Shown here: piece after piece, positions 131-22,968 of the stretch | How positions within the stretch are numbered: position 1 is the first letter of the stretch | How the letters are laid out: every line of letters starts with the position of its first letter | Source of the DNA: a virus | IMG/VR virus record: IMGVR_UViG_3300022602_000325 | Span: 1 to 28,141 of that record | DNA: 28,141 bases | Reading direction: 5' to 3' (one strand) | The notes under the pieces: generated by a model | What the model was told of the DNA's origin: nothing | The model's input: only the letters and a program-made list of their open reading frames with translations | Database searches by the model: none | Position numbers and translations under genes: made by a program

Positions 131-1147
131 ATGCTCACAGCCGTACAAGACGCAGTAAATCTATTACTTCCAGCCAAACGCAAAACAAACTCCACTAGTG
201 GTTGGATCAGTTTCAATGCGCCCTGCTGCGGCGATCGTCGTGGACGTGGCGGCATTATTGCAAATGGTAACGGGTCAGTCAGCTATCACTGTTTCAACTG
301 CAACTTCAAGGCCAACTACACTCCGGGTCGTCACCTAAACTACAAGTTTCGAAAACTGCTGGGCTATCTGGGTGCTGATGACAACACCATCAAACGCCTG
401 GTGATTGAAGCAGTACGTGTCAAAGACTTGGTTGCGCCCGAAGAACTGGAAAAAGCAGTCAAGGAAGAAGTACACTTTGCACCAAGGCCCTTGCCCGACA
501 GTGTGGTCAGTTTCAGCGAGTGGCGCACATTTTTGCGATTGCAAAACGAAGATGATCCCATACATCCACAGTTTCAGGCAGCAGCTACATACGTGTTGGA
601 TCGCAAGATTGATGTTGATCGTTATGAATTTTATACAACTGATAGTGAAGCCTACAATCTACACAAACGTATTATCATTCCGTTTTACTGGAAGGGAGAA
701 TTAATTGGGTATACTGCCAGAGGGCTGGACGACAACGTCAAGCCAAAATATCACAGCCAATATGCCACTGACTTTGTGTTTAATGTGGATCTACAAACAG
801 TTGAAAAGAAATTCGTCATCGTCACAGAAGGACCGTTTGATGCGATGGCCATTGATGGTGTTGCTATACTGGGTAATGAGTGTAGTGAGAATCAAGCTGA
901 TATTATCGACAGTCTGGGGCGGGAAGTCATTGTCGTACCCGATAACGATAAAGCAGGAAAAAATTTGGTCAATCAAGCGTTGGAGTATGGCTGGAATGTT
1001 AGCTTTCCAATTTGGCACGAGACTTGTAAGGACATTAATCAGGCGGTGATGAAGTATGGTAAACTATTTGTACTAAAAGCCATAATAGAGGGCAAAGAGT
1101 CTAGCAGACTCAAGATTGAGTTGAGAAAGAAAAAGATGAATGATTGA
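131..1147 (+). CDS. 61: DNA primase, T4 gp61 / DnaG-like
   Basis: This primase makes RNA primers for lagging-strand synthesis and would work with the helicase encoded three genes downstream. A zinc-ribbon-like N terminus is visible, with Cys32/Cys33 and Cys54/Cys57 (CFNC). A TOPRIM domain follows, with the glutamate motif TEGPFDAM (Glu233) and the aspartate motif VPDNDKAG (Asp271, Asp273). At 338 residues it matches the short T4-type primases rather than bacterial DnaG (about 580). It lacks a separate C-terminal helicase-binding domain of DnaG type. The ATG lies 6 bases after a TATAAT box and has no spaced Shine-Dalgarno, so the mRNA may be leaderless. The stop overlaps the next start (1140). 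Confidence 0.93.
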   Translation: MLTAVQDAVNLLLPAKRKTNSTSGWISFNAPCCGDRRGRGGIIANGNGSVSYHCFNCNFKANYTPGRHLNYKFRKLLGYLGADDNTIKRLVIEAVRVKDLVAPEELEKAVKEEVHFAPRPLPDSVVSFSEWRTFLRLQNEDDPIHPQFQAAATYVLDRKIDVDRYEFYTTDSEAYNLHKRIIIPFYWKGELIGYTARGLDDNVKPKYHSQYATDFVFNVDLQTVEKKFVIVTEGPFDAMAIDGVAILGNECSENQADIIDSLGREVIVVPDNDKAGKNLVNQALEYGWNVSFPIWHETCKDINQAVMKYGKLFVLKAIIEGKESSRLKIELRKKKMND

Positions 1148-1700: not shown

Positions 1701-2365
1701 ATTTGCCTGATCCAAAAATTTGTATAGTATTCAATTCTGGGTCTTGCGGTGACTTCTTGGCAGCACTGATATCACAACAACTTGATGCCACTGATATAAC
1801 AATCAACACCATAACAGGTGCTGCCGAAAATATAGCAGCGCAAGAATTTAAAGAGGCTGCTAAGGAATACTATAAATCTAAGTTTAACCCTGACAAATTT
1901 AACAATGTCGCCAATACCACAGTTGTAAATACTCACTATTGTGGTACTGAACTTATGAACCTTTTTCCAAACTGTAAGTTCTACTACATCGATGATTCAG
2001 AATTTATAGACGAGTCTGTGCAGGTCTATATTAAAAAACGTGTGACGACCAAATACGATTCACTACTAGATTGGTTTCACAACTTCCCAAATGTATTCAC
2101 TCACATAACATCACGTATAAAGAACATAGACGAAGAAAAGATTTTGCAATTTATGCGACGAGATTGGCACAGAAACGTCACAGTATGGAAACAATTGGGC
2201 ATCCCTGCAATTGCATTACGTGACGTTGTTGGTGAAAAAAGTTGTAAACAAATAGTCAAAAATATTATACAATCAGAAGTTGATGAATTTATGTTTACAG
2301 CATCGTTTACAAATTGGGCTGAGAAAAATAAAGAATTAATAGAACAAATATCGGAACATAAATGA
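1697..2365 (+). CDS. unknown protein, possibly sulfotransferase-fold
   Basis: No confident family. The N terminus ICIVFNSGSCGDFLAALI is a strand, a glycine/serine-rich loop and a helix. NTHYCG and a strand, KFYYID, follow near residue 110, and the C-terminal half is helical and charged (FMRRDWHRN). The order resembles PAPS-dependent sulfotransferase-like proteins seen in marine phages, but the loop is not a clean 5'-PSB motif, so this is only a suggestion. It is more AT-rich than the replication genes around it, consistent with an inserted accessory gene. It overlaps both neighbours by 4 bases (ATGA type), so expression should follow the primase-helicase operon. Confidence 0.6.
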   Translation: MNLPDPKICIVFNSGSCGDFLAALISQQLDATDITINTITGAAENIAAQEFKEAAKEYYKSKFNPDKFNNVANTTVVNTHYCGTELMNLFPNCKFYYIDDSEFIDESVQVYIKKRVTTKYDSLLDWFHNFPNVFTHITSRIKNIDEEKILQFMRRDWHRNVTVWKQLGIPAIALRDVVGEKSCKQIVKNIIQSEVDEFMFTASFTNWAEKNKELIEQISEHK

Positions 2366-3801
2366 AAGAATACAGCACAGATTTACAAAAACTATTTTTA
2401 GAAATGATGATCAGTGACGCACAGAACTTTGTGCGTGTGCAGAACATCTACAACAGCGAAAACTTTGATCGTAGTCTGAGAGAGACTGCCAAGTTTGTCA
2501 ACGAATACAGCGACAAATATAAAACACTGCCCAGTACAGAACAAATTCGGGCAACTACGGGTGTTGAATTAAAATTCGACTCCAATATGAGTGAGCACAA
2601 TGATTGGTTTATCTCAGAGTTTGAACAATTCACAAAGCGACAAGAACTAGAAAGAGCCATTCTCAAGTCAGCAGACTTGTTAGAGAAGGGTGATTTCGAT
2701 CCAGTAGAGAAACTAATCAAAGATGCGGTACAGATATCACTTACTAAAGACTTGGGTACGGATTACTTTGCTGATCCTGCGGCTCGTATTACAAAATATT
2801 TCAGTTCGGGTGGACAGCAAAGCACAGGTTGGCCGCAACTAGACAGATTGTTGTACGGCGGATTCTCACGAGGCGAACTCAACATCTTTGCTGGTGGCTC
2901 AGGCTCTGGTAAATCTCTGGTTATGATGAACATTGCTCTGAACTGGCTATCACAGGGTCTGAGTGGCGTGTATATCTCGCTGGAATTGAGTGAAGAATTG
3001 GTTGCGTTGCGTAGTGATGCTATGTTGACCAGCACTGGCACAAAAGAGATTCGCAAAGACGTTGATGGCACAAGTCTGAAAATTGCTATGGCTGGTAAGA
3101 AATGTGGAGACTATCGCATCAAAGCACTACCAGCACAATCAAACATCAACGACATTCGTGCATTCTTAAAAGAATATCAGATTCAGACTGGCAAGAAGGT
3201 TGACTTTATGATGGTTGACTATTTGGACTTGTTGATGCCAATCTCAGCTAAAGTCAGCCCCAACGATTTGTTTGTCAAAGACAAATACGTATCAGAAGAA
3301 CTGCGTAATCTGAGTAAAGAATTGGGTGTGCTGTTTGTCACAGCGTCACAGTTGAATCGTAGTGCTGTGGATGAACAAGAGTTTACTCACGCACACATCT
3401 CGGGTGGTATTAGTAAAATCAACACAGCAGATAACGTGTTTGGTATCTTGACTAGCAGAGCTATGAAAGAGCGTGGACGTTATCAGATTCAGTGTTTGAA
3501 ATCACGTAGTAGTACTGGTGTGGATCAAAAGATTGACCTTGAGTTCAACGTTGAAACAATGCGTATCACAGACCCAGGACTTGAAACTGCACACACCGGC
3601 GGACCACCCAATGTGAATGCTATTATGAGCAAGATCAAAAATGTGGGTGCGGCAACTGCAAATACAGACGAAGATCAGCCAGCTAAATTTGAACGAGCAA
3701 CAGGTACACCTGCTTGGGAAAAGCCAGCACAAAACGTTACTGGAACTAGTCAGAGTGCAAAACTAAAAAGTATGATTGCTGGGTTCAAGAAGTCAGAATG
3801 A
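2362..3801 (+). CDS. 41: replicative DNA helicase, T4 gp41 / DnaB-like
   Basis: A hexameric 5'-3' helicase that would unwind the fork ahead of the phage polymerase and recruit the primase encoded upstream. The N-terminal 150 residues are helical, as in DnaB-type N domains. The RecA-like motor follows, with Walker A GGSGSGKS (Lys184), Walker B DFMMVDYLDLL (Asp286) and a later SQLNRS segment like the H3 motif. The tail after about residue 415 is low in complexity and rich in Ala, Asn and Thr. The 479-residue length matches T4 gp41 (475). The ATG overlaps the previous stop, and the end overlaps the radical SAM gene by 4 bases. Confidence 0.93.
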   Translation: MKEYSTDLQKLFLEMMISDAQNFVRVQNIYNSENFDRSLRETAKFVNEYSDKYKTLPSTEQIRATTGVELKFDSNMSEHNDWFISEFEQFTKRQELERAILKSADLLEKGDFDPVEKLIKDAVQISLTKDLGTDYFADPAARITKYFSSGGQQSTGWPQLDRLLYGGFSRGELNIFAGGSGSGKSLVMMNIALNWLSQGLSGVYISLELSEELVALRSDAMLTSTGTKEIRKDVDGTSLKIAMAGKKCGDYRIKALPAQSNINDIRAFLKEYQIQTGKKVDFMMVDYLDLLMPISAKVSPNDLFVKDKYVSEELRNLSKELGVLFVTASQLNRSAVDEQEFTHAHISGGISKINTADNVFGILTSRAMKERGRYQIQCLKSRSSTGVDQKIDLEFNVETMRITDPGLETAHTGGPPNVNAIMSKIKNVGAATANTDEDQPAKFERATGTPAWEKPAQNVTGTSQSAKLKSMIAGFKKSE

Positions 3802-4751
3802 CCTGCATTGACGCATTCAAGAATATCAATATAGCAGTATTTAATGGGCAGCTTCAAATAGGCCCATGCTGCTTAACGCCCACAGAGAAGGTCGATAAAA
3901 TTGACTTCTATGACTCTGCGTATCTCAACAGAATCAGGCGCAGTTGGGCTAAGTCGCAAATCCCCAATGAATGTCAGGGCTGTGAGACCAGAAGACTGGG
4001 TTCTAATCAATGGTATGCAGCACACGGCCTTGATAATACTGATGTTGAACTAGTCAGATTGGACTATTGGGTCGGTGATATTTGTAATCTTAGATGTGTG
4101 ATATGTGGCCCTCACAGTAGCAGCAGTTGGAAATCTGAGTTGGGCATCACTGAACAAAAACAGGTTGTAAACAAGTACTGGCAAACACTGGATCTAACAA
4201 AACTAAAATTTGTTCACTTCAACGGTGGCGAACCCTTGTTGAGCAAAGAGCACGTAGAATTTTTAAAAGATATTCCCAACAAAGCACAGGTTCAAATCAA
4301 CTACAATACCAATGGCACTGTAAGACCAAATCAGGCATTGATAGATTTGTGGTCTGAATTTGAGTTAGTCTTGTTGGATTTCAGCATAGACGATATTGAT
4401 ACACGCTATGAATATCAGCGTTATCCAGCATCTTGGCCAGAAGTCAAAGAAAATCTACAGTGGTTCCGAGATACAATGCCAGTGAACTGTATGTTTGCCA
4501 TCAACACTACAGTGAGTATTTTGAATCAAGACACTATTCAGGAACTAGATTCTTGGGTAAAAGAAAATTTCTCTGAAAATCGTTTAGGTGATAAAATTGA
4601 GCACAGAAAACAGATGGCAAATGGCATACTGAGTCCAGATAGACCCACTGGAAACTTTGTAAAATACTTGGATCAGTGTGATAATAGGCGTGGCACAGAT
4701 TGGCGACGAGTCTTTCCTAGTCTCTCACAGAAATTTATAAATATACGATAG
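3798..4751 (+). CDS. radical SAM protein with N-terminal twitch domain
   Basis: The motif CNLRCVIC (Cys96, Cys100, Cys103) is the CxxxCxxC signature that binds the 4Fe-4S cluster used to cleave S-adenosylmethionine. Upstream, a Cys-rich segment has CC near residue 25 and CQGC near residue 55. This matches the arrangement called the twitch-domain radical SAM family, which may hold an auxiliary cluster. After the motif, HFNGGEPLLS resembles the GGEPLL segment of the SAM-binding barrel. Substrate is unknown. The protein needs Fe-S clusters, which makes the phage IscA and IscU genes about 9 kb away relevant. It is the last gene of the replication operon, and a late promoter lies over its final codons. 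Confidence 0.88.
   Translation: MTCIDAFKNINIAVFNGQLQIGPCCLTPTEKVDKIDFYDSAYLNRIRRSWAKSQIPNECQGCETRRLGSNQWYAAHGLDNTDVELVRLDYWVGDICNLRCVICGPHSSSSWKSELGITEQKQVVNKYWQTLDLTKLKFVHFNGGEPLLSKEHVEFLKDIPNKAQVQINYNTNGTVRPNQALIDLWSEFELVLLDFSIDDIDTRYEYQRYPASWPEVKENLQWFRDTMPVNCMFAINTTVSILNQDTIQELDSWVKENFSENRLGDKIEHRKQMANGILSPDRPTGNFVKYLDQCDNRRGTDWRRVFPSLSQKFINIR
4736..4743 (+). promoter_or_regulatory. T4-type late promoter TATAAATA
   Basis: This is an exact match to the T4 late promoter element, and it overlaps the last codons of the radical SAM gene. Predicted RNA starts near 4749. It marks the switch from replication genes to the late operon 4753-9941. Confidence 0.7.
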
Positions 4752-4752
4752 A

Positions 4753-5040
4753 TTGGAGCAAATCTTGCAGAAGCAGACTCGCAGCATTTTAGACGAATTG
4801 GCCAATATCGGAGCGGATCGTGACCGCAGCCGAATCATTGAAACCAGAGCCAGTAACGTCATTGCAAGCGCAATCAATCTCATGGGCTATATCCGTGAGA
4901 ACTACGATGCTACTACTGCCGACGAACTGGAACGCAGATTACTAAACAGTATTCGCACACAAGACCCCAGTAAGTTTACTCGCAAAGTAAGAGGGCTCCA
5001 AGAAAACAAAGAGAGCCCAAATGAAAATAACAGACCTTAA
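4753..5040 (+). CDS. small helical protein, unknown
   Basis: Not recognised. The reading frame opens with TTG one base after the radical SAM stop and encodes 95 charged, largely helical residues with no Cys. No ATG lies near the start, so TTG is the likely initiator, perhaps coupled to upstream translation. The frame is open throughout and ends 20 bases inside the next gene, which supports a real gene. Residues 1-80 look like two or three amphipathic helices, and the tail is polar. The late promoter just upstream and the virion-like genes downstream suggest late expression. Confidence 0.65.
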   Translation: MEQILQKQTRSILDELANIGADRDRSRIIETRASNVIASAINLMGYIRENYDATTADELERRLLNSIRTQDPSKFTRKVRGLQENKESPNENNRP

Positions 5041-8000
5041 CGTCCCCGTCAGTTTTAAACTAGTAGAATCTCGTAGATATCTTTACGAGGGTCTAGATAG
5101 ATCCGCTACACAAAGCGCAATGCTTTGGGAAAGTGCTGGTAATCGTTTAGTAGAATACGCACTAACTCCAGATCAGATCAACAAGATTTTCCAAGATGCC
5201 GAAGCTGGTATGGCTGGGCAAGGTGCAAACCGCACAATGCTGGGCAAGGGTGTTGATGTTGCCAAGACAGGTGTTGAAGCAGCAAAAGAAGTTAACAAGG
5301 CTTGGGAAGACTTAAAGACAAAAATTTCTAACTCGGGTCCAGTTAAGGGATTCGATCAAAAAGTCAGCGATGTATTGAGCAAGATCGGTGTCGGTGCAAA
5401 AGATCCGCAGTTTCAGGGTTTGGTCAGTAACTGGGTACAAAAATATCGTGACTTTGCTACACAACATCCAATCATTCAAGGTGCTGTGTATGCTACCTTG
5501 ATCGCTGTGGCTGGTTTAAGCGGTGCTGGTGTTGCTGGCGCAGCAGGTTTGGGCTTGTTAAAGATGGCAGACAAACTATTGCAAGGTGAGCGTTTCAGTA
5601 GCGCAGCTTATTCTGGCGCTAAGACTGGTGCTTTGGCCTATGGTGCCGGTCAAGCTAAACAAGCATATAGTGCTCACCAAGCGGCAGCGAATGCAGCGAA
5701 CGGACAAGGTCTTCCTGCACACCCAAGCGCAGCCAGTGACTACAACGGAACTGCAACAGGCCCAGATGGTAGCAATGTTACAAATCCAATAGGTCCTGAT
5801 AATGTCACTGCTCCGGTGGGTGCTGGCGGTGATCTCGGTGGCGGTAACTATACAATAATGAAGGGCGATACAATGGGAAGTATCGCACAGGCACAGGGTA
5901 TTCCTGACGCAGACTTGCAAGGTCTAAATCCACAGATTGATTTCTCTAAACCATTGCAACCAGGTATGAATATTAACTTGCCTGGTGCAGGTGATAACGC
6001 AGGTAGCGTGTGGCAAGGATATCAAGGTGGTAACTATGGTGATGCAGCAAGTGCTGCTCACAAAGCAGCCGGACACGCAGCAAACGCAGCCACACAACAA
6101 GCAGATACAGCAACACAGGCAGCTGGTACCGCTACAAACGCAGCCACACAACAAGCAGATACAGCAACACAGGCAGCTGGTACCGCTACAAACGCAGCCA
6201 CACAACAAGCAGATACAGCAACACAGGCAGCTGGTGGAATTCACAATCAAGCAGACTTGGACAATTATGTTCAAAAGAGTATTGACGCTGGTACTACACC
6301 TACTGGTCCTGACCTTAGCGGCTTCACCGAAGTAACTCCACAGGGTGGCGATGTTACTACACAACTTAAAAACTTAGTTGCCAAAGGTTACCATGTTGCA
6401 CAAAGTCAACAGTATCCTGATCATATTGAGATTACTGATGCAAGTGGCAAAGTTGTACAACAGTTTAACCCAGGCAACAGATTCTTGGCAAATCGTTTGA
6501 GTGCGGCAGCGAATGGTATCAACTTGCGTGAATCGTTTATTGATACTCGTCAAACAGCAAGAAAATGGATGTTGCGTGAGAGTCTAGGTCGTCCACGCGG
6601 TGGTGTTGTTCTTACAGAAATGGCCATTGCAAATATACTGTATGAAGCAGGCGAAGCAGTTGATACTGGTGCTGCCCCAGCAGCAGAGCCAAAGAAACCT
6701 GGCGCTCTTAAACGTATTAGTAACTGGTTCAAACAAAAAGGCAGCAATCTTACAAACAAAGTCACAGCAGACAAGTTGAAACAAACTTGGATCAAACAGC
6801 AGATGCCTGATGACAGTGAAGAAATTGCTAAAATCTTATCAGACGCTGGTGTTGGTAAAGCCATCATCAGTAACATCTTTAAGGGTATGGGCGTTCCAAC
6901 AGCAGGTGCTGCACAGGCTCAAGCAGGTGGTCAACAACCACAAGCACAAGGTCAGGCGCAAAATCAAGGACAAGCACAACCCCAAGCACAAGGTCAACCA
7001 GGTGGTAATACTGGGACTCGAGGACAAGCACAACCCCAAGCTCAGGCAGCTGGCGCAGAAGAACCACAACAACAAGGTTTGGGTTCTAAGATCAAACAGG
7101 CCGCTGGTAACTTTGTCAGCGATACTGGAAAAGGTCTTGGTATGATCGGTGACGTGGCACGAGGTGCTGCTGGTGCAGTAGAACGAGGCAAATACGGACT
7201 TGCTGGTGCATCAGATACATCATATCTGCAAAAATCACAGACAGATAAAGCCAGAGGTCCCGAAACAGTTAATCCAAATGTGCATACAATGTATGACAAA
7301 GCCGGCAAGCCATACACATACACCAAGAAGGGTGGCAAATGGGTGGATGCTCAGGGTGGTGAAGTGCCTCCAGCATTTGCCGCAAGCATTGAAGCACAGA
7401 TTGCACAAAAACAAAAAGATGCTTTGAACAAACAAAAAGCTGGTCCAGGTGTTGATGCAAATGCTATGGCAGCTAAACAAGCTGCTGGTGCAAAAGCTGC
7501 TGCTGGTTCAATGAAGGCATCTGATGGCACTGCTACAAAAACACAGGCTACACAAGGCGGAGTAACCGCAGCAAACAGAATTAACAACACGACTCCTGGT
7601 CAGTATACTGCACACGGTGCTGGTACTACTGGTCCACAAACTTACAACAAAGGCATTCAGGCGTTCCCTAATAACGATACTACAAAAGCAGCACAGCCAA
7701 TGGCAACTGCTAACAATGCTAATGCTACAGCAGAACCAAAAGAGCCAACATTGAATCCTGAACCGCAAGCACAGGCAAAACCAGCAGCTACTAGTTTTGC
7801 TGGTAATCAGAATGCTGGTTACGGTAAAGCAACATACAATGTACCAACAGGTGCAGCTGTTCCAACTGCAAAAGCTCCAGCAGCAACTCCGACAAAAACA
7901 GCAGCAACTCCGACAGCAAGTGCTCAGGCAGATGCAGGGAAACCTGGGTTCTTACAAAGCAAGATTAAAGGTCGTCAACCAGCAGTCACTGCCGAAGGTA

Positions 8001-8044
8001 GAAACTTTGCTGGCATCTTGTGGAAACAAATGAAGGGTCTATGA
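5021..8044 (+). CDS. large LysM-domain virion protein, possibly protease-processed
   Basis: This 1007-residue Ala/Gln/Gly-rich protein is probably a virion component. The first 45 residues hold three sites matching the T4 prohead protease rule (LxE before S/G): LVE16-S, LYE23-G and LWE37-S. A hydrophobic Gly/Ala helix pair covers about 149-187. A LysM peptidoglycan-binding domain spans about 277-321 (YTIMKGDTMGSIAQ to INLPG). Three 18-residue repeats cover 355-408. A second cluster of cleavage-like sites lies at 502-543 (LRE504-S, LRE520-S, LYE542-A). The rest is low-complexity, with a PQAQGQ tract near 640-680. It overlaps neighbours at both ends. A head-internal, ejected protein is inferred; a tail component is possible. 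Confidence 0.85.
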   Translation: MKITDLNVPVSFKLVESRRYLYEGLDRSATQSAMLWESAGNRLVEYALTPDQINKIFQDAEAGMAGQGANRTMLGKGVDVAKTGVEAAKEVNKAWEDLKTKISNSGPVKGFDQKVSDVLSKIGVGAKDPQFQGLVSNWVQKYRDFATQHPIIQGAVYATLIAVAGLSGAGVAGAAGLGLLKMADKLLQGERFSSAAYSGAKTGALAYGAGQAKQAYSAHQAAANAANGQGLPAHPSAASDYNGTATGPDGSNVTNPIGPDNVTAPVGAGGDLGGGNYTIMKGDTMGSIAQAQGIPDADLQGLNPQIDFSKPLQPGMNINLPGAGDNAGSVWQGYQGGNYGDAASAAHKAAGHAANAATQQADTATQAAGTATNAATQQADTATQAAGTATNAATQQADTATQAAGGIHNQADLDNYVQKSIDAGTTPTGPDLSGFTEVTPQGGDVTTQLKNLVAKGYHVAQSQQYPDHIEITDASGKVVQQFNPGNRFLANRLSAAANGINLRESFIDTRQTARKWMLRESLGRPRGGVVLTEMAIANILYEAGEAVDTGAAPAAEPKKPGALKRISNWFKQKGSNLTNKVTADKLKQTWIKQQMPDDSEEIAKILSDAGVGKAIISNIFKGMGVPTAGAAQAQAGGQQPQAQGQAQNQGQAQPQAQGQPGGNTGTRGQAQPQAQAAGAEEPQQQGLGSKIKQAAGNFVSDTGKGLGMIGDVARGAAGAVERGKYGLAGASDTSYLQKSQTDKARGPETVNPNVHTMYDKAGKPYTYTKKGGKWVDAQGGEVPPAFAASIEAQIAQKQKDALNKQKAGPGVDANAMAAKQAAGAKAAAGSMKASDGTATKTQATQGGVTAANRINNTTPGQYTAHGAGTTGPQTYNKGIQAFPNNDTTKAAQPMATANNANATAEPKEPTLNPEPQAQAKPAATSFAGNQNAGYGKATYNVPTGAAVPTAKAPAATPTKTAATPTASAQADAGKPGFLQSKIKGRQPAVTAEGRNFAGILWKQMKGL
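6083..6235 (+). repeat. 54-bp tandem repeat, three copies
   Basis: Units begin at 6083, 6137 and 6191, and the third is cut short near 6235. The copies are nearly identical in DNA and keep the frame, giving an 18-residue unit beginning NAATQQADTATQ. The near-identity at silent positions suggests recent duplication. Confidence 0.92.
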
Positions 8045-8847
8045 TGTTTTTAGCAGAAGGCGGAAACGTATTCAAGAAAGCAGACAAGACTCCCGGTACT
8101 CAGCGTATTAACCGTGTAGATGTTTCAATCACAGTCAAGTGGCTAGAACAGGTCACTGGTCTAAGTCTGATGGACGCAATGGTTGGTAGTACTGGACAAC
8201 GAGATACCAGCGGCGACATTGATTTGGCACTAGACGGCAATCATATTACCAAAGCGGCTGTAATCGGCACATTGGTAAACTGGTGCAAGCAGAACGGTAT
8301 CCCAGACGATCAGATTATGAATCGCAAAGCAAAGGGTAAAAACCCATCTATGCTTGACGGTTGGATCGATCAGACTGGTATTGAAGTTCACTTCAAATGC
8401 CCAATCAACGGCGATATTAAAAACGGTCTAGTTCAAGTTGATTTTAACTTCTTGACACAAATGGCTTGGAGCAAGTTTATGCTTGCAGCAATGCCAGCAG
8501 ATAGTCAGTTCAAAGGCGTTGATCGTGCTGTGTTGTTTAACAGCATTGGTAAAACACAAGGGGTTAAAGTAGCAGTTAATTCTGGGGTTCACGACAGAGC
8601 AACTAACGAACTTGTTACTACAGACCCAGGCACATTTGCTCACATATTGCTTGGTCCACAGGGCACAATACAAGATTTGGCCAGTGTAGAAACTACTATT
8701 GCCGCACTGAGAAATGATCCACATCGTGATGCCAAACTGCACGATTTTGCAGAATACCTACAACGCAGTGGCAGACAAATGCCACAACTAGAAGCCAGCG
8801 CACACCCAAGCAACTGGTTTAAGTATATTAATCAGAGACTAAAATAA
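8041..8847 (+). CDS. Pol-beta-superfamily nucleotidyltransferase
   Basis: The segment VGSTGQRDTSGDIDLAL has the nucleotidyltransferase signature: Gly49-Ser50 followed by the metal-binding pair Asp59-x-Asp61. A third carboxylate is probably Asp134 in VQVDFNFL. These enzymes transfer a nucleotide from an NTP to nucleic acid, protein or small molecules; the substrate here is unknown. The protein is 268 residues from the ATG at 8041, which overlaps the previous stop (ATGA). An upstream GTG at 8020 is less likely. The N terminus MMFLAEGG contains LAE-G, a prohead-protease-like site, but only six residues in. The next gene starts in its stop (TAATG), so the two enzymes are probably made together. 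Confidence 0.85.
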   Translation: MMFLAEGGNVFKKADKTPGTQRINRVDVSITVKWLEQVTGLSLMDAMVGSTGQRDTSGDIDLALDGNHITKAAVIGTLVNWCKQNGIPDDQIMNRKAKGKNPSMLDGWIDQTGIEVHFKCPINGDIKNGLVQVDFNFLTQMAWSKFMLAAMPADSQFKGVDRAVLFNSIGKTQGVKVAVNSGVHDRATNELVTTDPGTFAHILLGPQGTIQDLASVETTIAALRNDPHRDAKLHDFAEYLQRSGRQMPQLEASAHPSNWFKYINQRLK

Positions 8848-9941
8848 TGCTGCTTGAATTTGTACAAATGCTCACAGAAGCACGAACTCCGCACCCCGAA
8901 GATTTCATTTTTCAGGGCAGCGAAAGTGCTATGGATGCTATCAACGGTATTGTCAGCGCAGTAGAGCAGCCACAAACAGTCACAATCAAGTGGGACGGAA
9001 GCCCAGCTATTGTATTTGGTCGTAGAACAGCAGATGGTATGTTTACCATGAACTACAAAGAATACATTGGCTTGCCAGGAGCACAAGTTACAACAGCACA
9101 AGAGTTGCTTGACTTCTATATCAAGAACAACAAGAACATTGAAGTGGGACGAAAACTTGCAAGCGTATTCAATGCCGTAGGCTCAATATGCCCACCCACA
9201 TTTCGAGGGTTTGTTCAGGGTGACCTGATGTGGCTAGAACCACTTCAGCCCAACAACGGTAAGTTTGTATTCAAACCCAATCCACACGGTGTCACATACA
9301 GAGTGCCTGTAGACAGCGATATCGGCAAAAAGATTGTGGGCAGACAAGTGGGATTGGCTGTACACAGCATTGGCTCAGATGTTGAAAACAACAAAGAAAC
9401 TCCTTTAGTTGGTCGTCGTAGTATGAACGGACTAGAAGGTCTTGTAGACAGTAACAAATGGTGTACAGTGTTTACTGGCAATATGGGCATTGATTTCAGA
9501 TTAAAACGCCCAGTCAGAGCAGAAAACGCAGCTCGTGCAGCAGTCAATAAGTTCAAAGCCATTGGTGGTGATGACTTCTTGGGCAGTATCACTGGGTCTA
9601 CCAAAGCAACTCTACAGACTTATTACAATCGAAAAGTCACTGGACAAGCAGTAGATCAAAACTGGCTAGAAACTAAGTTATCTAAGCCACAGTATGCTGT
9701 AATCAACAGCGAAGAAAATCGCCCCATTATCGAGGCTTTAGACAAGGTTTATAGCGCAATTGCTGCATTAAAGATGGCAATGTTGCAACAATTAGAACCC
9801 CAAGTATCTGGGGTAGAACAGTTTGTGAATGACGTTCCCAAGGGGGAAGGATTCAACATAGACACCCCCAGCGGCTTTATCAAGCTAGTTAACAGGGGTG
9901 TTTTCAGCGCCGCAAACTTCGCTGGAAGAGCACAAGTTTAA
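8847..9941 (+). CDS. KxDG nucleotidyltransferase / ligase-like protein
   Basis: The segment TIKWDGSPAIVFGRR carries KxDG (Lys48, Asp50, Gly51), the motif I of covalent nucleotidyltransferases such as DNA and RNA ligases, where the lysine is nucleotidylated. A GFVQGDLMW segment (about 121-129) and KFVFKPNPHG further on may correspond to later strands of that fold, but motifs III-V are not clear. The family is present in T4-like phages without a firm function as far as I know. The N terminus MLLEFVQMLTEA ends in LTE11-A12, a prohead-protease-like site resembling the capsid-targeting peptides of T4 internal proteins. It is the last gene of the 4753-9941 operon. Ligase activity is a hypothesis. 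Confidence 0.82.
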   Translation: MLLEFVQMLTEARTPHPEDFIFQGSESAMDAINGIVSAVEQPQTVTIKWDGSPAIVFGRRTADGMFTMNYKEYIGLPGAQVTTAQELLDFYIKNNKNIEVGRKLASVFNAVGSICPPTFRGFVQGDLMWLEPLQPNNGKFVFKPNPHGVTYRVPVDSDIGKKIVGRQVGLAVHSIGSDVENNKETPLVGRRSMNGLEGLVDSNKWCTVFTGNMGIDFRLKRPVRAENAARAAVNKFKAIGGDDFLGSITGSTKATLQTYYNRKVTGQAVDQNWLETKLSKPQYAVINSEENRPIIEALDKVYSAIAALKMAMLQQLEPQVSGVEQFVNDVPKGEGFNIDTPSGFIKLVNRGVFSAANFAGRAQV

Positions 9942-12075: not shown

Positions 12076-12873
12076 ATGCGTTTATCAGAAATGAGCAATC
12101 AGCCCCGCGCTGACAAAATTAACAAAGTAGTCGAAAGCCGTTTTGGTTTTAAAATTGATTACGCAAATCTAACATTCAAAAAAGCCTTCGGCATCGTTCA
12201 GGGTTTAAACGAGACACTTGACCGTGCTCGTCGTACTCACGGTGTTCACAGCGCAGAAAAGAATCCACACTATATGGAAATCTTGATGGTGCGTGAAAGT
12301 CTGAATCGCTGGATGGTAGAAAACCGTCAACAACTAATCGTTGAAAGCGAAATGGCTAAGGCAGAAGCAACTCTTGCTGCTAAAGACATGGTTGACAGCA
12401 TCCAAGATATGCTTGAGAAAATTGGCAAAATGCAAAACGAACAGCTTCCAGCTTTGTTGGATACTATTCGTGATCAAATCGGTGATCAACAGGCAGAACA
12501 GTTCAAGAGCACTGTAACTCCATTGCTACAACAACTATGGCAATCACTAAGTGATGGTCGTGGTCAAGCAGACACTGCCGCTCGTCAATTGACAGGCGAA
12601 GGTGGTAGTGATATGGGCTTGGGCGGTGGCGAGATGGGTGGTATGGGCGGCGCTCCAGCTCCAGCTCCAGGTATGGGCGGTGACGAATTGGGCGGCGGCG
12701 ATGAATTCGGTGCTACAGCCGCAGCAGCTGGTGGCACTGACGAACTAGGTCGTGAACGCCGTGAAATGGCAGAAGCTAAAAAAGCCAAGCCAGACTATAT
12801 CGATCTTGACAAAGACGGTAACAAAAAAGAAACAATGAAAAAAGCTGCGAAGGACGCAAAGGCTAAAAAATGA
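12076..12873 (+). CDS. helical core/scaffold-like virion protein with DxDxDG tail
   Basis: This 265-residue protein has three regions. Residues 1-165 are helical and charged. Residues 170-230 are a flexible Gly/Met/Ala/Pro linker (GGGEMGGMGG). A basic tail carries DLDKDG (243-248), like one EF-hand calcium loop, then a Lys/Ala-rich end. It has no Cys. IVE90-S91 matches the T4 prohead protease rule. This architecture recurs in head-associated proteins of T4-like marine phages, so a prohead core, scaffold or internal protein is a reasonable guess. It overlaps the next gene by 4 bases, so the two are probably made in step. Confidence 0.8.
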   Translation: MRLSEMSNQPRADKINKVVESRFGFKIDYANLTFKKAFGIVQGLNETLDRARRTHGVHSAEKNPHYMEILMVRESLNRWMVENRQQLIVESEMAKAEATLAAKDMVDSIQDMLEKIGKMQNEQLPALLDTIRDQIGDQQAEQFKSTVTPLLQQLWQSLSDGRGQADTAARQLTGEGGSDMGLGGGEMGGMGGAPAPAPGMGGDELGGGDEFGATAAAAGGTDELGRERREMAEAKKAKPDYIDLDKDGNKKETMKKAAKDAKAKK

Positions 12874-13325
12874 GATTCAACGAATTTCGCCCATTGTTTG
12901 AAGACGTCTTCGATGACGAGTACGGGGCTGATCCGTCAAGCTACATCGAAGACGACGCTGACCACGAGGCTGACAATGCGTTAATCGATACTTTGCGTGA
13001 GATACAGTTTAGCAGCAGCGATAAAAAGATTCCCAAAATCGCTGTTGGCGCACTAATTAATTTGGTTAAGAATAAACCAGGTGGTGAAGCGTTTGATCTT
13101 AATGCGCTAGAAAAAGCCAAAAAGAACAACGAGACTGTTAAAGAAATGATTAAGAACATTGAAGACAACGAAGAAGGGGTCAAGTATGTGTTCATTAATC
13201 CAATCGAGCCAATCGATGGACCAGAAGGCGAAGTGGGTGGTAGCGAAGATGGTCAAGCTGGTATGACTGCTCCAGAAAAGACAGTGGCTAGCATGGCTAA
13301 CAGAGCACTTTCAAGTCGCACATAA
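12870..13325 (+). CDS. acidic protein coupled to the scaffold-like gene, unknown
   Basis: This 151-residue protein has a strongly acidic N-terminal 45 residues (DVFDDEYGADPSSYIEDD), a helical middle (residues 50-105) and a Gly/Glu/Pro-rich acidic linker before a short C-terminal helix. The first residues MRFNEFRPLFE resemble the capsid-targeting type of N terminus, but the residue after LFE is Asp rather than Ala, Gly or Ser. It begins inside the stop of the upstream gene (ATGA). The hairpin at 13349-13388 follows it and may end its transcript. No known family; a virion or assembly role is inferred from position. Confidence 0.75.
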   Translation: MRFNEFRPLFEDVFDDEYGADPSSYIEDDADHEADNALIDTLREIQFSSSDKKIPKIAVGALINLVKNKPGGEAFDLNALEKAKKNNETVKEMIKNIEDNEEGVKYVFINPIEPIDGPEGEVGGSEDGQAGMTAPEKTVASMANRALSSRT

Positions 13326-13391: not shown

Positions 13392-13691
13392 ATGAAACGT
13401 TTACTTTTAGCTCTGGCATTAATAACAAGCACAACAGCATTTGCTCAACACGGCTACTGGCGTCACGATGGTCGCGGTGGTTGGGGTTGGGTCGCTCCTG
13501 CCGTAATTGGTGGTGTAGTCGGCTATGAAATCGCCCGTCCCCCGGTGTATGCACCTGCTCCAGTAGTTGTACAGCAACCAGTGATTGTCGAACAACCACA
13601 AGTAGTTCAGCCTGCACAACAAAATTGCAGTCCTTGGACACAGATCCAAAACCCTGACGGTAGCGTCACAAGCACACGGACTTGCAGATGA
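13392..13691 (+). CDS. small secreted protein with Sec signal peptide
   Basis: The ATG at 13392 is chosen because AAGGAG lies 7 bases upstream and the product then begins with a clean signal peptide, [18 protein letters not shown], cleaved before Gln19. The mature protein (about 81 residues) starts with a His/Trp/Gly segment ([12 protein letters not shown]). It then has a Gly-rich hydrophobic stretch ([14 protein letters not shown]), a Pro/Val/Gln tract, and a C-terminal pair Cys79 and Cys98 that could form a disulfide. Similar small periplasmic proteins occur in proteobacteria, so acquisition from the host is likely. It is the first gene of the transcript that continues into iscA and iscU. 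Confidence 0.85.
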
Positions 13692-14011
13692 TTACAATAA
13701 CTGAATCTGCACTGGAAAAAGTCAGAGATATATTGGCTGAGGAAAATAATCCTCAGATTAAACTACGCACATTTGTCCAAGGCGGAGGCTGTAGCGGATT
13801 TAGTTATGGCTTTACTCTAGACGAAGAACAAAATGAAGACGACTTTGTTATTGACAACAATGGCATTATCGTACTGATTGACAGTATGAGTATGCAGTAT
13901 CTGCAAGGCGCAACTATTGACTATAAAGAAGAACTTATGGGCAGTAGTTTTACAATACAAAACCCCAACGCACAAACTACTTGTGGCTGTGGATCAAGTT
14001 TTTCTGTTTAA
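13688..14011 (+). CDS. iscA: A-type iron-sulfur carrier IscA
   Basis: IscA-type proteins carry iron or assembled Fe-S clusters to target enzymes. From the ATG at 13688, which overlaps the previous stop (ATGA), the protein is 107 residues. It has the three ligand cysteines Cys35 (GGGCSGF), Cys99 and Cys101 (CGCG), the same length and positions as in Escherichia coli IscA. An upstream TTG at 13682 is less likely. All residues expected for function are intact. It lies directly before iscU in one late transcript. SufA or ErpA are alternatives within the same family. The setting with iscU favours IscA. Confidence 0.93.
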
Positions 14012-14018
14012 GGAGACA

Positions 14019-14069
14019 ATGGAAGTAGTGGAATCAATAACAGGAGTTAAGTATGTCATATTCGGATAA
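14019..14069 (+). other. 16-codon micro-ORF with strong ribosome site before iscU
   Basis: AAGGAG (14010-14015) sits 3 bases before an ATG opening a 16-codon frame, MEVVESITGVKYVIFG, whose stop lies inside iscU. It could be a leader peptide coupling iscA to iscU, or a remnant. The spacing is shorter than ideal. Confidence 0.3.
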
Positions 14070-14439
14070 AGTTTTGGATCATTATAATAATCCTAGAAAT
14101 GTCGGATCGTATAAAAAAGGTGAAGAAGGTGTTGGTGTTGGTCTCGTAGGGGCGCCATCATGCGGTGATGTTTTGCAACTAAGTATAAAAGTAGAAAATG
14201 GAGTAATAACAGATGCCAGATTCAAAACCTATGGATGCGGCAGCGCCATTGCCAGCAGCAGTCTCGTTACAGAATGGGTCAAGGGAAAAACGCTTGACCA
14301 AGCACGAACGATTACTAATTCAGACATTGCTCAAGAGCTTGCCCTCCCACCGGTTAAAATACATTGTAGCATACTTGCAGAAGATGCTATAAAGGCAGCA
14401 GTAGAAGATTATAAGAAGCGACATGATAGTTTACAGTGA
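14053..14439 (+). CDS. iscU: Fe-S cluster assembly scaffold IscU
   Basis: IscU is the scaffold on which Fe-S clusters are built from sulfur delivered by the desulfurase IscS. The 128-residue protein matches the E. coli length and carries every key residue: Cys37, Asp39, Cys62 and Cys105, and the LPPVK motif (98-102) that the chaperone HscA recognises. Long blocks such as the one around TYGCGSAIASSS are essentially those of proteobacterial IscU, pointing to acquisition from a host. AGGAG (14042-14046) is its ribosome site. No iscS, hscA or fdx occurs in the window, so host partners would be needed. It overlaps the next gene by 17 bases. Confidence 0.97.
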   Translation: MSYSDKVLDHYNNPRNVGSYKKGEEGVGVGLVGAPSCGDVLQLSIKVENGVITDARFKTYGCGSAIASSSLVTEWVKGKTLDQARTITNSDIAQELALPPVKIHCSILAEDAIKAAVEDYKKRHDSLQ

Positions 14440-18781: not shown

Positions 18782-21142
18782 ATGAGTAACATTCAAGTCA
18801 CGAAACGTAGTGGCCGAAAAGAGCCCTTAGCAGTTGAAAAGTGGCAAGCACAGATTACAAAAATCTGTTCAGGAATAGCGGACGTAAGTCAGAGTATGAT
18901 CGAGATTAGAAGTCAACCACACTTCTATGACGGCATCACAACCCGAGAGATTGACGAAATCACTCTACGAGCAATCGTAGACCTGATCGACGTTACCAGT
19001 AACCCAGATGTAGGACACGTAAACTATCAGTACGTAGCAGGCAAGCAACGCTTATCCATGCTGCGAAAGGATGTTTATGGCGAATACGAGGTCCCGCACC
19101 TCTACGATATTGTGAAACGCAATGTTGAAGTCGGTCTGTACACTCCCGAGTTGTTGGACTGGTATACTCCAGAAGACTGGAACAAAATGAATGATATGCT
19201 GGATCATGAAAAAGATGAACAGTATAGCTATGCAGCAATCGAACAGTTAATTGAAAAATATCTAGTGCGTAATCGTGCTACAAAGGAAGTATATGAAACT
19301 CCTCAAATCAGATACATGGTTGCATCGGCTACTATCTTCCATAAAGAAGAACCTAATACAGCCCGTATGCGATTTATCAAAGAATACTATAACGCAGCCA
19401 GTGATGGTCTATTCACTTTGGCTACTCCTGTCTTGGCTGGTCTGGGAACTCCTACTAAACAATTCAGTAGTTGCGTTCTTATTCGCAGCGATGACGACCT
19501 TGATAGTATATTTGCATCCGGAGAAATGATGGCCAAGTATGCCAGCAAACGTGCAGGCATTGGTTTAGAGATTGGACGTTTACGTCCATTAGGTGCTCCC
19601 ATTCGTGGTGGCGAAATCATGCACACTGGCATGATTCCATTCTTGAAGAAATGGTTTGGTGATCTACGTAGTTGCAGTCAAGGAGGTATTCGTAATGCAA
19701 GTGCCACTGTTTTTTATCCCATCTGGCATCATCAATTCGATGATCTTATTGTGCTCAAGAACAATCAAGGAACCGACGAAACCCGTGTACGACATATGGA
19801 CTACGGGGTGGTGCTTTCTGCTTTTTTCTGGCGTAGATTTAGAAACAAACAAGATATCACGTTCTTTGACCCTAACGAAGTACCGGATCTATATAACGCC
19901 TTCTACCGAGATACCGCGCTTTTTGAGGAGCTGTATGTCAAGTATGAAAAGCAAGCGGGTCTACGTAAAAAGTCTATGCCTGCCGAGGAAGTTTTTAAGA
20001 GTGGCATTCTAAAAGAGCGAACTGATACTGGACGAATTTATCTAGTGTTCATTGACAATGTGATGAATCAGGGACCATTCGATCCCGAGTATCACACCAT
20101 TTATCAAAGTAATCTCTGCTGTGAAATTCTATTACCTACTAAATCGTTTAAACGACTGGATGACGAATCCGGACGGATCGCACTTTGCACGTTGGGTTCG
20201 CTCAACTGGGGTGCTTTCAGGAATCCTGAGGATATGCGCCGCGCTGCTAGAATTCTTCACAGGTCCCTCAACAATATTCTTGACTATCAGGATTTCTTAT
20301 CCATCCAATCCAAGTTATCTAATGATGAGATTAGACCAATTGGCATCGGCGTTACTAATCTTGCCTACTGGCATGCGAAGCGCGGGTTCAAATATGGGGA
20401 CCGTGATTCGTTACGTGAAGTCAAATCGTGGATGGAGCATCAGGCATATTATCTTACCGAAGCCAGTGTTGAACTAGCCAAAGAACGTGGACGTTGTTTA
20501 CACAGCGATCAAACACGTTACGGCAAGGGCATCTTCCCTTGGGAACTACGTGCTAAAGGTGTTAATGAACTCGCAGACTTCACACCAGAACTAGATTGGG
20601 AAACTCTACGTGCTAATATGAGAGCATATGGTGTACGTAATGCTACACAAATGGCTGTAGCTCCTGTAGAATCTAGTAGCGTTGTCATTAACAGTACCAA
20701 CGGTATTGAAATGCCAATGCAACTGATTTCAGTTAAAGAATCAAAAGCTGGTAGTCTAGTACAGGTTGTGCCAGAATATCAGAAGTTGAAAAACAAATAT
20801 CAACTAATGTGGGATCAAACAGACTGTGATGGATACCTCAAGACTGCTGCCGTTATTGCAGCATATACTGATCAAAGTATTAGTACCAATACTTTTTATA
20901 ATCCTGCTAATTTCCCAGACCGTAAGGTTCCTACTACGCTGATTGCCAAGAACTTGATGCAAGCGCATATGTGGGGCCTGAAAACATTCTACTATAGCCT
21001 GATTAACAAGCAAGGTGCTAAAGCAGCACCCGAAGACAGACCCGGTGTAGTAGAAGAACAAAAATTGTGGAATGCAATCAAAGCACCAGTTGCACAACAA
21101 TATGACGACCTTGAAGATGACTGCGAATCGTGCAAGTTGTAG
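18782..21142 (+). CDS. nrdA: ribonucleotide reductase class Ia, large subunit NrdA
   Basis: NrdA reduces ribonucleoside diphosphates to deoxy forms using a radical passed from NrdB. The 786 residues begin with an ATP-cone-like domain (RSGRKEPLAVEKW), the overall activity switch. Expected residues are present: Cys231 in QFSSCVLI, Asn444, Cys446 and Glu448 in NLCCEILLPT, the radical-transfer tyrosines Tyr737-Tyr738 in KTFYYS, and the C-terminal redox pair Cys781 and Cys784 (CESCKL) that glutaredoxin recharges. It is complete. A ribosome-site-like AGAGG precedes the ATG. It heads an operon with nrdB and glutaredoxin, interrupted by an HNH gene. Confidence 0.98.
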   Translation: MSNIQVTKRSGRKEPLAVEKWQAQITKICSGIADVSQSMIEIRSQPHFYDGITTREIDEITLRAIVDLIDVTSNPDVGHVNYQYVAGKQRLSMLRKDVYGEYEVPHLYDIVKRNVEVGLYTPELLDWYTPEDWNKMNDMLDHEKDEQYSYAAIEQLIEKYLVRNRATKEVYETPQIRYMVASATIFHKEEPNTARMRFIKEYYNAASDGLFTLATPVLAGLGTPTKQFSSCVLIRSDDDLDSIFASGEMMAKYASKRAGIGLEIGRLRPLGAPIRGGEIMHTGMIPFLKKWFGDLRSCSQGGIRNASATVFYPIWHHQFDDLIVLKNNQGTDETRVRHMDYGVVLSAFFWRRFRNKQDITFFDPNEVPDLYNAFYRDTALFEELYVKYEKQAGLRKKSMPAEEVFKSGILKERTDTGRIYLVFIDNVMNQGPFDPEYHTIYQSNLCCEILLPTKSFKRLDDESGRIALCTLGSLNWGAFRNPEDMRRAARILHRSLNNILDYQDFLSIQSKLSNDEIRPIGIGVTNLAYWHAKRGFKYGDRDSLREVKSWMEHQAYYLTEASVELAKERGRCLHSDQTRYGKGIFPWELRAKGVNELADFTPELDWETLRANMRAYGVRNATQMAVAPVESSSVVINSTNGIEMPMQLISVKESKAGSLVQVVPEYQKLKNKYQLMWDQTDCDGYLKTAAVIAAYTDQSISTNTFYNPANFPDRKVPTTLIAKNLMQAHMWGLKTFYYSLINKQGAKAAPEDRPGVVEEQKLWNAIKAPVAQQYDDLEDDCESCKL

Positions 21143-21184: not shown

Positions 21185-21871
21185 ATGAACTATCAAAGGA
21201 TTTACGATGCTATTATTGAAAGAGGCAAAAATAGAACACTTACAGGATACCAAGAATCTCATCATATTGTTCCAAGATGTTTAAATGGAACTGATGATAA
21301 AGATAACTTGGTATCTCTTACACCTGAAGAACATTATCTGTGTCATCTGTTATTAGTTAAAATATATCCAAATAATATTAAGTTAGTTAAAGCCGCTATG
21401 TTTATGGTATCATCAAACAATAATGTAAAAAGAAATAATAAGGCATACGGTTGGCTTAAACGACAATATTCAGATTATATGCGTGGACCAAATAACCCAC
21501 AAAAGTTAAATCCACGTAAAGGCGAAAGACACCATACATATAATCGTAAGATTGAATTTAACTTTACTGATGACGGTCGAAAAGTGTTATCCGATAAGAT
21601 GACTGGTAATAAAAATCCTTGTGCCGGTGTTAAGCCTTGGAACCATCCAAGAGCTACAGATTATTCAAAATCAGTTTGGAAGAAAGCTGATGTAATATAT
21701 CAAACTTGGATAGATAATAACAAACCATCGTACTGTAAGTTATATACATTACTGAACGAAAAATGTTATACTAACGAAAGCAAGGTAATAGGCCCTTATA
21801 TGAATATGATAAAATATTTTAGAGATGGTTGGGTTCCTACACAAGATACAGAATGGACAAAATATAAATGA
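21185..21871 (+). CDS. free-standing HNH homing endonuclease, MobE-like position
   Basis: The N-terminal domain has the HNH core: His26-His27 (SHHIVPR), Asn41 and His50 (LTPEEHYLCH), the type found in phage homing endonucleases. The rest (60-228) is Lys/Asn-rich and includes NPQKLNPRKG and a C-terminal segment likely to bind DNA. It is markedly more AT-rich than nrdA and nrdB and sits between them, where T4 carries mobE, so it is probably a selfish gene that spreads by cutting nrd genes lacking it. Its stop overlaps the nrdB start (ATGA), so it has become coupled to an essential gene. Intact frame suggests it is active. Confidence 0.9.
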   Translation: MNYQRIYDAIIERGKNRTLTGYQESHHIVPRCLNGTDDKDNLVSLTPEEHYLCHLLLVKIYPNNIKLVKAAMFMVSSNNNVKRNNKAYGWLKRQYSDYMRGPNNPQKLNPRKGERHHTYNRKIEFNFTDDGRKVLSDKMTGNKNPCAGVKPWNHPRATDYSKSVWKKADVIYQTWIDNNKPSYCKLYTLLNEKCYTNESKVIGPYMNMIKYFRDGWVPTQDTEWTKYK

Positions 21872-22968
21872 GCAAACAACAATATAATCTCTCAACTAAA
21901 ACAGACTATCTCAGTCGCAAGATGTTTCTTGACGAAGCAGGTCCTGTAACTATCCAACGCTTCGAAGAAGTCAAGTATCCCAAGATTGCTAACTTTGAAA
22001 CCACAGCACGTGGCTTCTTTTGGGTACCGGAAGAAGTATCATTGACCAAAGACGCAGCAGACTTTAAAGATGCTAGTGAAGCAGTCAAGCATATCTTTAC
22101 TAGCAACCTGCTACGCCAAACAGCATTGGACAGTTTGCAAGGTCGTGGCCCAAGTCAAGTGTTTGCTCCTGTGATCAGCTTGCCTGAACTTGAAGCACTT
22201 GTCTATAACTGGACATTCTTTGAAACAAACATCCATAGTCGTAGTTATTCACACATCATTCGTAACATCTATAACGTGCCCAAAGAAGTGTTCAACACAA
22301 TTCACGATACGCAAGAGATTGTTGAAATGGCAAGTAGTGTAGGTGATTATTATGATGCTCTGCACGTTATCAACTGCCGCAAAGAACTCGGCGAAACGGT
22401 GACTGAAAAAGAACATATTAAGGCGATTTGGATGGCATTACACGCCAGTTATGCACTCGAAGCCTTCCGTTTTATGGTGAGCTTTGCTACATCACTGGCA
22501 ATGGTAGAAAACCGTATCTTTATGGGTAATGGCAACATCATCAGTTTGATTCTACAAGATGAGTTGTTGCACAAAGGTTGGACAGCATACTTGATTAACC
22601 AAGTAGTTAAAGAAGATCCACGCTTTGCTGCCATCAAAGCAGAATGCGAACAAGAAGTATATGCTCTGTATATGGACGTGATTCGTGAAGAAAAGGCTTG
22701 GGCACATTACTTGTTCAAGAAAGGTCCAGTGATTGGTCTTAACGCAAACATCTTGTGTGACTTTATGGACTACACAGCACGTGGTGCATTGTTGGACATT
22801 GGTATCAAGTATCAGGCAACAGCACCCAAGACAACACCTATTCCATGGTTCAACAAACACACAGACACTAGCAAGAAACAAACAGCCTTGCAAGAATCTG
22901 AATCAACTAGCTATGTCATCGGTGTTATGAGTGATGCACTTGACTATGACGAGTTGCCCGACCTATGA
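21868..22968 (+). CDS. nrdB: ribonucleotide reductase class Ia, small subunit NrdB
   Basis: NrdB houses a di-iron centre and a tyrosyl radical that starts catalysis in NrdA. Visible ligands are Asp88 (LDSLQGR), the Glu119/His123 region (FFETNIHSRSY), a glutamate in ALEAFRF and the ExxH of QDELLH. The radical tyrosine is Tyr127 in HSRSYSHI. The C-terminal end DALDYDELPDL should dock into NrdA. The block reads ETNIH where E. coli and T4 have ETIH, an apparent one-residue insertion between two ligands. At 366 residues it is complete. Translation starts within the stop of the HNH gene, and it overlaps the next gene by 4 bases. Confidence 0.97.
   Translation: MSKQQYNLSTKTDYLSRKMFLDEAGPVTIQRFEEVKYPKIANFETTARGFFWVPEEVSLTKDAADFKDASEAVKHIFTSNLLRQTALDSLQGRGPSQVFAPVISLPELEALVYNWTFFETNIHSRSYSHIIRNIYNVPKEVFNTIHDTQEIVEMASSVGDYYDALHVINCRKELGETVTEKEHIKAIWMALHASYALEAFRFMVSFATSLAMVENRIFMGNGNIISLILQDELLHKGWTAYLINQVVKEDPRFAAIKAECEQEVYALYMDVIREEKAWAHYLFKKGPVIGLNANILCDFMDYTARGALLDIGIKYQATAPKTTPIPWFNKHTDTSKKQTALQESESTSYVIGVMSDALDYDELPDL

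Follow-up and report, generated by a model that had tools for sequence, protein, structure and literature searches.

Positions 5021–9941 of the IMG/VR virus record IMGVR_UViG_3300022602_000325 raise the question of why three adjacent genes of a T4-type phage should encode proteins whose N termini resemble those of proteins packed into the T4 head. The record, 28,141 nucleotides long, was analysed in full and is referred to here as the window. T4 packages Alt and the internal proteins by means of short N-terminal targeting peptides, and its prohead protease gp21 cuts after (L/I)xE. The three genes encode, in order, a protein with a LysM domain, a nucleotidyltransferase (NT), and a KxDG protein of the Pfam family DUF6267 (Table 1). 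The original prediction, made from the sequence alone, was that they form one overlapping late operon for a head-internal cargo that includes two nucleotide-transfer enzymes and is delivered into the host with the DNA. The reading that we favour, and consider fairly probable from the sequence comparisons described below, is that the operon specifies late-made head cargo cut by the prohead protease, in which NT and DUF6267 would enter the host together with the genome as a kit for gap filling and ligation.

All of the N-terminal (L/I)xE-type sites that had been named for the LysM protein, NT, and the KxDG protein were found in the sequence, and only the start of NT needed adjustment. The ATG at 8041 gives MMFLAE-G, and the second ATG, at 8044, which is favoured by the relatives, gives MFLAE-G with the glutamate at residue 5. 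Among 64 non-redundant relatives of NT, position P3 before the predicted cut is L in 40, I in 21, and V in 3, P2 is occupied by eleven kinds of residue, P1 is E in all 64, and P1' is G in 63 and S in one, with the glutamate at residue 4–9, just before a conserved GGN. This pattern conforms to the published gp21 rule, L/I-x-E (PMC9026906). In two distant relatives, recovered from bacterial bins, the targeting-type start is longer (MRFYELTQSVYRVKLTE-GG and MLVREILIE-GGNVF), and the NTs of the jumbo phages Atu_ph07 and Phosso begin M-GG, the predicted mature start. The AlphaFold2 models had mean predicted local distance difference test (pLDDT) scores of 90.1 for NT and 90.4 for DUF6267, with residues 1–5 and 1–10, respectively, below 50; because terminal residues are often uncertain in models, low pLDDT at the N termini is taken as supporting evidence only. 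The original prediction had itself hung on the persistence of the LxE sites in homologues, and the sites are conserved in the relatives.

Most relatives have NT and DUF6267 fused in a single protein of about 590–680 residues. The linkers of 43 non-redundant fusions contain [LI]xE[GAS] in 39 cases and [LIV]xE in all 43, and the density of [LI]xE[AGS] is 3.48 per 100 residues in the linkers versus 0.059 elsewhere in the same fusions, a difference of approximately 59-fold. The linker site directly precedes the DUF6267 core, which is the position of the propeptide in the split form, and sites so dense and so located match the prediction of a cleavable polyprotein. The split DUF6267 proteins of the window's clade keep the start LEF(V/I)xxLxE-(A/G). 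In one relative (L069), an extra open reading frame (ORF) of 137 residues with the targeting-type start MKSTEFITE-S lies between NT and DUF6267.

The LysM protein has the targeting N terminus MKITDLNVPVSFKLVE-S. Its six [LIM]xE[AGS] sites in 1007 residues lie only at E16, E23, and E37 and at E504, E520, and E542, and none of 20,000 shuffles of the protein gave three sites within the first 45 residues; since the second cluster is the only other one, the LysM protein may itself be split. The gene preceding NT carries [LIV]xE[GAS] in its first 30 residues in 34 of 51 loci, versus 2.9 expected (loci with a closed frame were counted, and a few rows took a neighbouring frame), and 13 unrelated body families stand behind this one N-terminal style. 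Examples are MKINEIITE-A, MKSSEFLKE, and MQIHEITQQKLDE-G, and T4 control N termini of like style are those of gp24 (MAKINELLRE-S) and ipII/III (MKTYQEFIAE-A). Conservation of the N termini through gene overlap was considered and rejected: ORF 4753–5040 shares just 20 bases with the LysM gene (5021–8044), and the sites are located past that stretch. The predicted set of three proteins was partly recast, with NT and DUF6267 mostly joined in a cleavable polyprotein and the LysM body as an additional cargo that can be exchanged.

Neighbouring genes touch or overlap; NT begins within the end of the LysM gene and shares one base with DUF6267 at 8847, as expected of the single overlapping operon that had been proposed. 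The longest ORF of the first gene runs from 4753, and its conserved start, MQKQTRS, corresponds to a TTG at 4765, the relatives beginning MQK(K/Q/R)TRS. The proposal that the operon is expressed late is supported at the level of promoter sequence by TATAAATA in the window and by a TAAATA with A, C, or G in front of it, which lies 23–30 nt 5' of the operon's first gene in all of 75 distinct relatives, whereas chance would give 0.015 per relative. A gp21 protease is encoded in two large relatives, G007 (344 kb, E = 6e-24) and G008 (156 kb, E = 1e-26), where it adjoins gp22-like and gp23 genes (gp23 E = 1e-97 and 5e-100, respectively), and both of these genomes also encode NT–DUF6267 fusions.

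The NT of the window had no Pfam or PHROG match, and a PDB sequence search with the NT and DUF6267 profiles gave nothing credible. Foldseek matched the NT model best to Pol X, Pol lambda, and Pol beta, the top match having E = 2e-4 at a probability of 1.00. Alignment with bacterial Pol X by hhalign gave 92.7% and E = 4e-7 over 160 columns, versus at most 0.7% in 15 column-permuted controls, and it takes in the thumb stretch as well as GS...GDxD and the third Asp; the catalytic residues G57, D58, D60, and D133 are invariant in 61 sequences. The fold search and the profile comparison both identify NT as a polymerase of the family-X type, with a predicted polymerase-like activity. It is like the family X DNA polymerases (bacterial Pol X, Pol beta, and Pol lambda) in fold, GS...GDxD, third Asp, and thumb region; unlike them, it lacks the 8-kDa/HhH and PHP domains, and the identity is low. 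In 62 DUF6267 sequences, K48, W49, D50, and G51, which form motif I (KxDG) of the ATP-dependent ligase superfamily, are invariant and EG335 and K346, candidates for its motifs IV and V, nearly so, and the protein is probably ligase-like, judged from sequence and model on weaker evidence than that for NT. The two nucleotide-transfer enzymes of the original prediction therefore stand, refined to a family-X polymerase-like and a probably ligase-like protein. In Atu_ph07 and Phosso, a different KxDG protein, with a weak match to Pfam RNA_ligase (E = 0.002), precedes NT, indicating that the polymerase–ligase pairing recurs.

The conserved peptides, the linker sites, the late promoter, the protease of the large relatives, and the similarity to Pol X are read directly from the sequences; packaging, cleavage, ejection, ligase activity, and a repair role are what we infer. 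The operon would produce head cargo late in infection, an N-terminal capsid-targeting peptide would carry each protein into the prohead core, and a gp21-type prohead protease would cut after (L/I/V)xE, freeing the mature protein inside the head. NT, with its Pol beta/X fold, and DUF6267, probably a ligase-like protein forming a covalent nucleotidyl-lysine, would act together. In most relatives they would be made as one polyprotein split by the same protease, and in the window's clade from two genes, each product having its own propeptide. The gene ahead of the pair would serve as an exchangeable cargo slot. The most likely job is the repair of gaps and nicks in the phage DNA, by filling and sealing, while it is being ejected or immediately afterwards, at a time when phage replication proteins do not yet exist.

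Several observations weigh against this reading of head cargo. The motif had no genome-wide excess: a 127-kb relative, G001, has 6 proteins with it versus 6.3 expected. In the window, [LI]xE[AGS] with the glutamate at residue 4–22 occurs in 4 proteins versus 1.8 expected from internal stretches. The motif alone is therefore not diagnostic, and since the single-genome pattern is not significant, conservation decides. The regular expression is unspecific, as in the T4 stretch it also flags tk.4 and gp17, which are not head proteins; a motif census in Syn9 gave too few matches for an enrichment test among virion proteins. P1' at the first linker site is A, G, or S in only 24 of 43 fusions and is often Q, T, N, or D. 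Neither the gp21 protease nor gp23 was found in the six closest contigs searched, all possibly fragments; the window itself is a fragment without head genes. The GGN(V)F past the NT site is itself conserved, so part of the NT N terminus is structural. Finally, the top Foldseek matches of DUF6267 were ligases with a non-significant E of 0.37, and hhalign against RNA and DNA ligase profiles gave E = 0.04 for short motifs only, again not significant.

The order of those DUF6267 matches, led by tRNA and RNA ligases, fits the alternative that fares best, namely that the proteins are packaged and cleaved in the same way and the pair is directed at RNA or the host, through tRNA/RNA repair against host anticodon nucleases or Alt-like nucleotidylation of host machinery; T4 Alt modifies host RNA polymerase. 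The weak RNA_ligase match of the NT neighbour in the jumbo phages points the same way, as do weak matches of a few NT relatives to the AbiEii toxin nucleotidyltransferase. We nevertheless regard this alternative as unlikely, because the profile and fold of NT, thumb region included, fit DNA polymerase X and the 50 best PDB matches listed included none to a tRNA-type nucleotidyltransferase. Distinctly less probable is that the motifs are parts of the folds or uncut tags and that the enzymes work unpackaged in the cytoplasm. The conserved GGNVF after the NT site and the missing genome-wide excess would agree with this, but P2 varies freely between the conserved P3 and P1, the sites recur in the linkers of fusions, one N-terminal style is common to 13 unrelated bodies, the jumbo-phage NTs do without the peptide, and model confidence is low over residues 1–5 of NT and 1–10 of DUF6267. 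That the proteins are scaffold or core parts for head building, with secondary or inactive enzyme folds, is very improbable given the invariant catalytic residues of both families, even though the genes are grouped with head and packaging proteins and the cleaved T4 core proteins gp22, gp67, and gp68 are scaffold parts.

Among known systems, the head cargo proposed here is most readily compared with IPI, IPII, IPIII, and Alt of T4, where IPI inhibits a nuclease and Alt acts as an ADP-ribosyltransferase. The likenesses are a short N-terminal peptide ending in (L/I)xE before A, G, or S, late expression, here read from the promoter motif, a conserved targeting peptide followed by bodies that vary, and a gp21-type protease, found here in the large relatives. 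Unlike in T4, a polymerase-type protein is paired with a probable ligase-type one as the cargo, and the two usually form a single polyprotein whose linker carries the sites. The giant phages phiKZ and SPN3US eject many head proteins that a gp21-related protease has cleaved after xxE; there, the motif is S/A-x-E and the cargo includes a virion RNA polymerase.

A cyanophage enzyme bears on the claim that no such set had been described. The putative cytidylyltransferase T4-GC190 was found by mass spectrometry in virions of cyanophage S-SM1 (PMC3037559), in a passage that does not discuss targeting peptides. Syn9 gp184 (L064:8893-10041), a cytidylyltransferase adjoining DUF6267, starts MKKFSAFLSE-A and is apparently of the same family as T4-GC190, judging from the annotation. 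This nucleotidyl enzyme shares the gene neighbourhood of DUF6267 and, in Syn9, a targeting-like N terminus; unlike NT, it belongs to another enzyme superfamily, and the Syn9 DUF6267 itself is without such a peptide. The earlier claim thus holds for the cargo and the cleavable polyprotein, which appear new, and not for a nucleotidyl enzyme in the virion as such; the targeting principle was already known from T4. A literature search of open-licence papers found no phage virion polymerase X or comparable phage set.

In Atu_ph07, CDS 31-76 form a cluster of virion proteins, 29 of them detected by mass spectrometry (PMC6102473); the NT gene lies inside this cluster, and the figure of 29 applies to the cluster as a whole. 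In Atu_ph07, the four neighbouring proteins gp059-gp062 (L156:7673-10357), of which three resemble one another, share the start M(R/K)W(H/D)QL(T/I/N)E, with A or N as the next residue, and these targeting-type N termini sit in a gene cluster rich in virion proteins detected by mass spectrometry.

The virions of African swine fever virus contain Pol X and a DNA ligase, proposed to repair the viral DNA ahead of its replication (PMC12172490). The likeness is in the combination of a Pol X-type enzyme with a ligase, carried in the virion there and predicted to be so here; this unrelated animal virus, whose enzymes are not known as a cleavable polyprotein, offers a functional analogy only. By that analogy, gap repair of the entering DNA would be the most likely function of the phage pair.

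The KxDG protein is encoded at 54 IMG/VR loci, and relatives of NT occur on at least 552 stretches. The broadest form of the proposal, that widespread environmental T4-like phages ship a head-borne polyprotein of Pol X-type polymerase and ligase, split by the protease and injected for pre-replication genome repair, is tentative, and we hold it to be possible rather than probable. If true, a phage would carry a ready gap-filling and sealing pair, and this could be part of the reason why phage genomes that are very large and easily damaged survive entry. A function would be provided for DUF6267, a family in hundreds of phage records, and for a polymerase-type family that neither Pfam nor PHROGs contains. 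Further ejected phage enzymes could be searched for by the signature of the conserved targeting N terminus, and the prohead protease could be offered the polyprotein linker as a simple substrate in vitro.

Table 1. Features of the operon and other genes of the window.
Feature	Position	Strand	Remarks
Primase	131-1147		From sequence
gp41-type helicase	2362-3801		From sequence
T4-type late promoter of the operon, TATAAATA	4736..4743	+	Sole exact copy in window
Operon gene 1, virion structural protein phrog_11854	4765..5040	+	PHROG E 3e-20
Variable cargo gene, LysM protein, 1007 aa	5021..8044	+	Pfam LysM 6e-7, residues 277-321
N-terminal candidate cleavage sites (Glu codons): LVE-S E16, LYE-G E23, LWE-S E37	5066..5131	+	
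Second candidate cleavage cluster: E504, E520, E542	6530..6646	+	Between LysM protein halves
NT, family-X-polymerase-like nucleotidyltransferase, 267 aa	8044..8847	+	GSTG...SGDIDL, QVDF
NT propeptide, M-F-L-A-E	8044..8058	+	Predicted cut before Gly6
DUF6267 KxDG protein, 364 aa	8847..9941	+	Pfam DUF6267 4e-30; K48-x-D-G, EG335, K346-L-V
DUF6267 propeptide, MLLEFVQMLTE (E11)	8847..8879	+	Predicted cut before Ala12
Head/packaging protein phrog_14154	12076..12873	+	VVE-S at E20, possible further substrate
Small acidic protein, targeting-type N terminus MRFNEFRPLFE-D	12870..13325	+	
nrdA	18782-21142		From sequence
nrdB	21868-22968		From sequence

The search for the same N-terminal pattern in other proteins of the genome, which the original prediction had called for, was successful for the small acidic protein, whose relatives start MRYREFARQINE-G, MRYSEIRRALRE-S, and MRIRDIIVE-N; by sequence, the set with T4-like targeting N termini thus reaches past 5021–9941 to 12870–13325. 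In G001, a second run of enzymes (L059:8551-15376, minus strand) has several members with targeting-like N termini. The run comprises an NTP_transf_2 protein, an Amidoligase_2 protein with the start MRLSEIRTLLE, a protein whose NT5C 5'-nucleotidase domain begins directly after MKFFEIANGLE-S, and a SprT-like protein with the start MARHNPIRYIME-A.

The window as a whole belongs to a T4-type myovirus, a relative of T4 from a lake, its neighbourhood matching the annotated records of Syn9, Atu_ph07, and Phosso at the helicase and primase. Two small proteins similar in sequence to the Fe-S assembly proteins IscA and IscU are encoded at 13682–14439, and G001 has ORFs similar to this pair at 106085–106465 and 105793–106113. 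Judged from sequence, an ORF resembling HNH-type homing endonucleases lies between nrdA and nrdB (21185–21871), and a cell-wall-hydrolase-like protein with a signal-peptide-like start, possibly a lysis enzyme, is encoded at 26328–26939.

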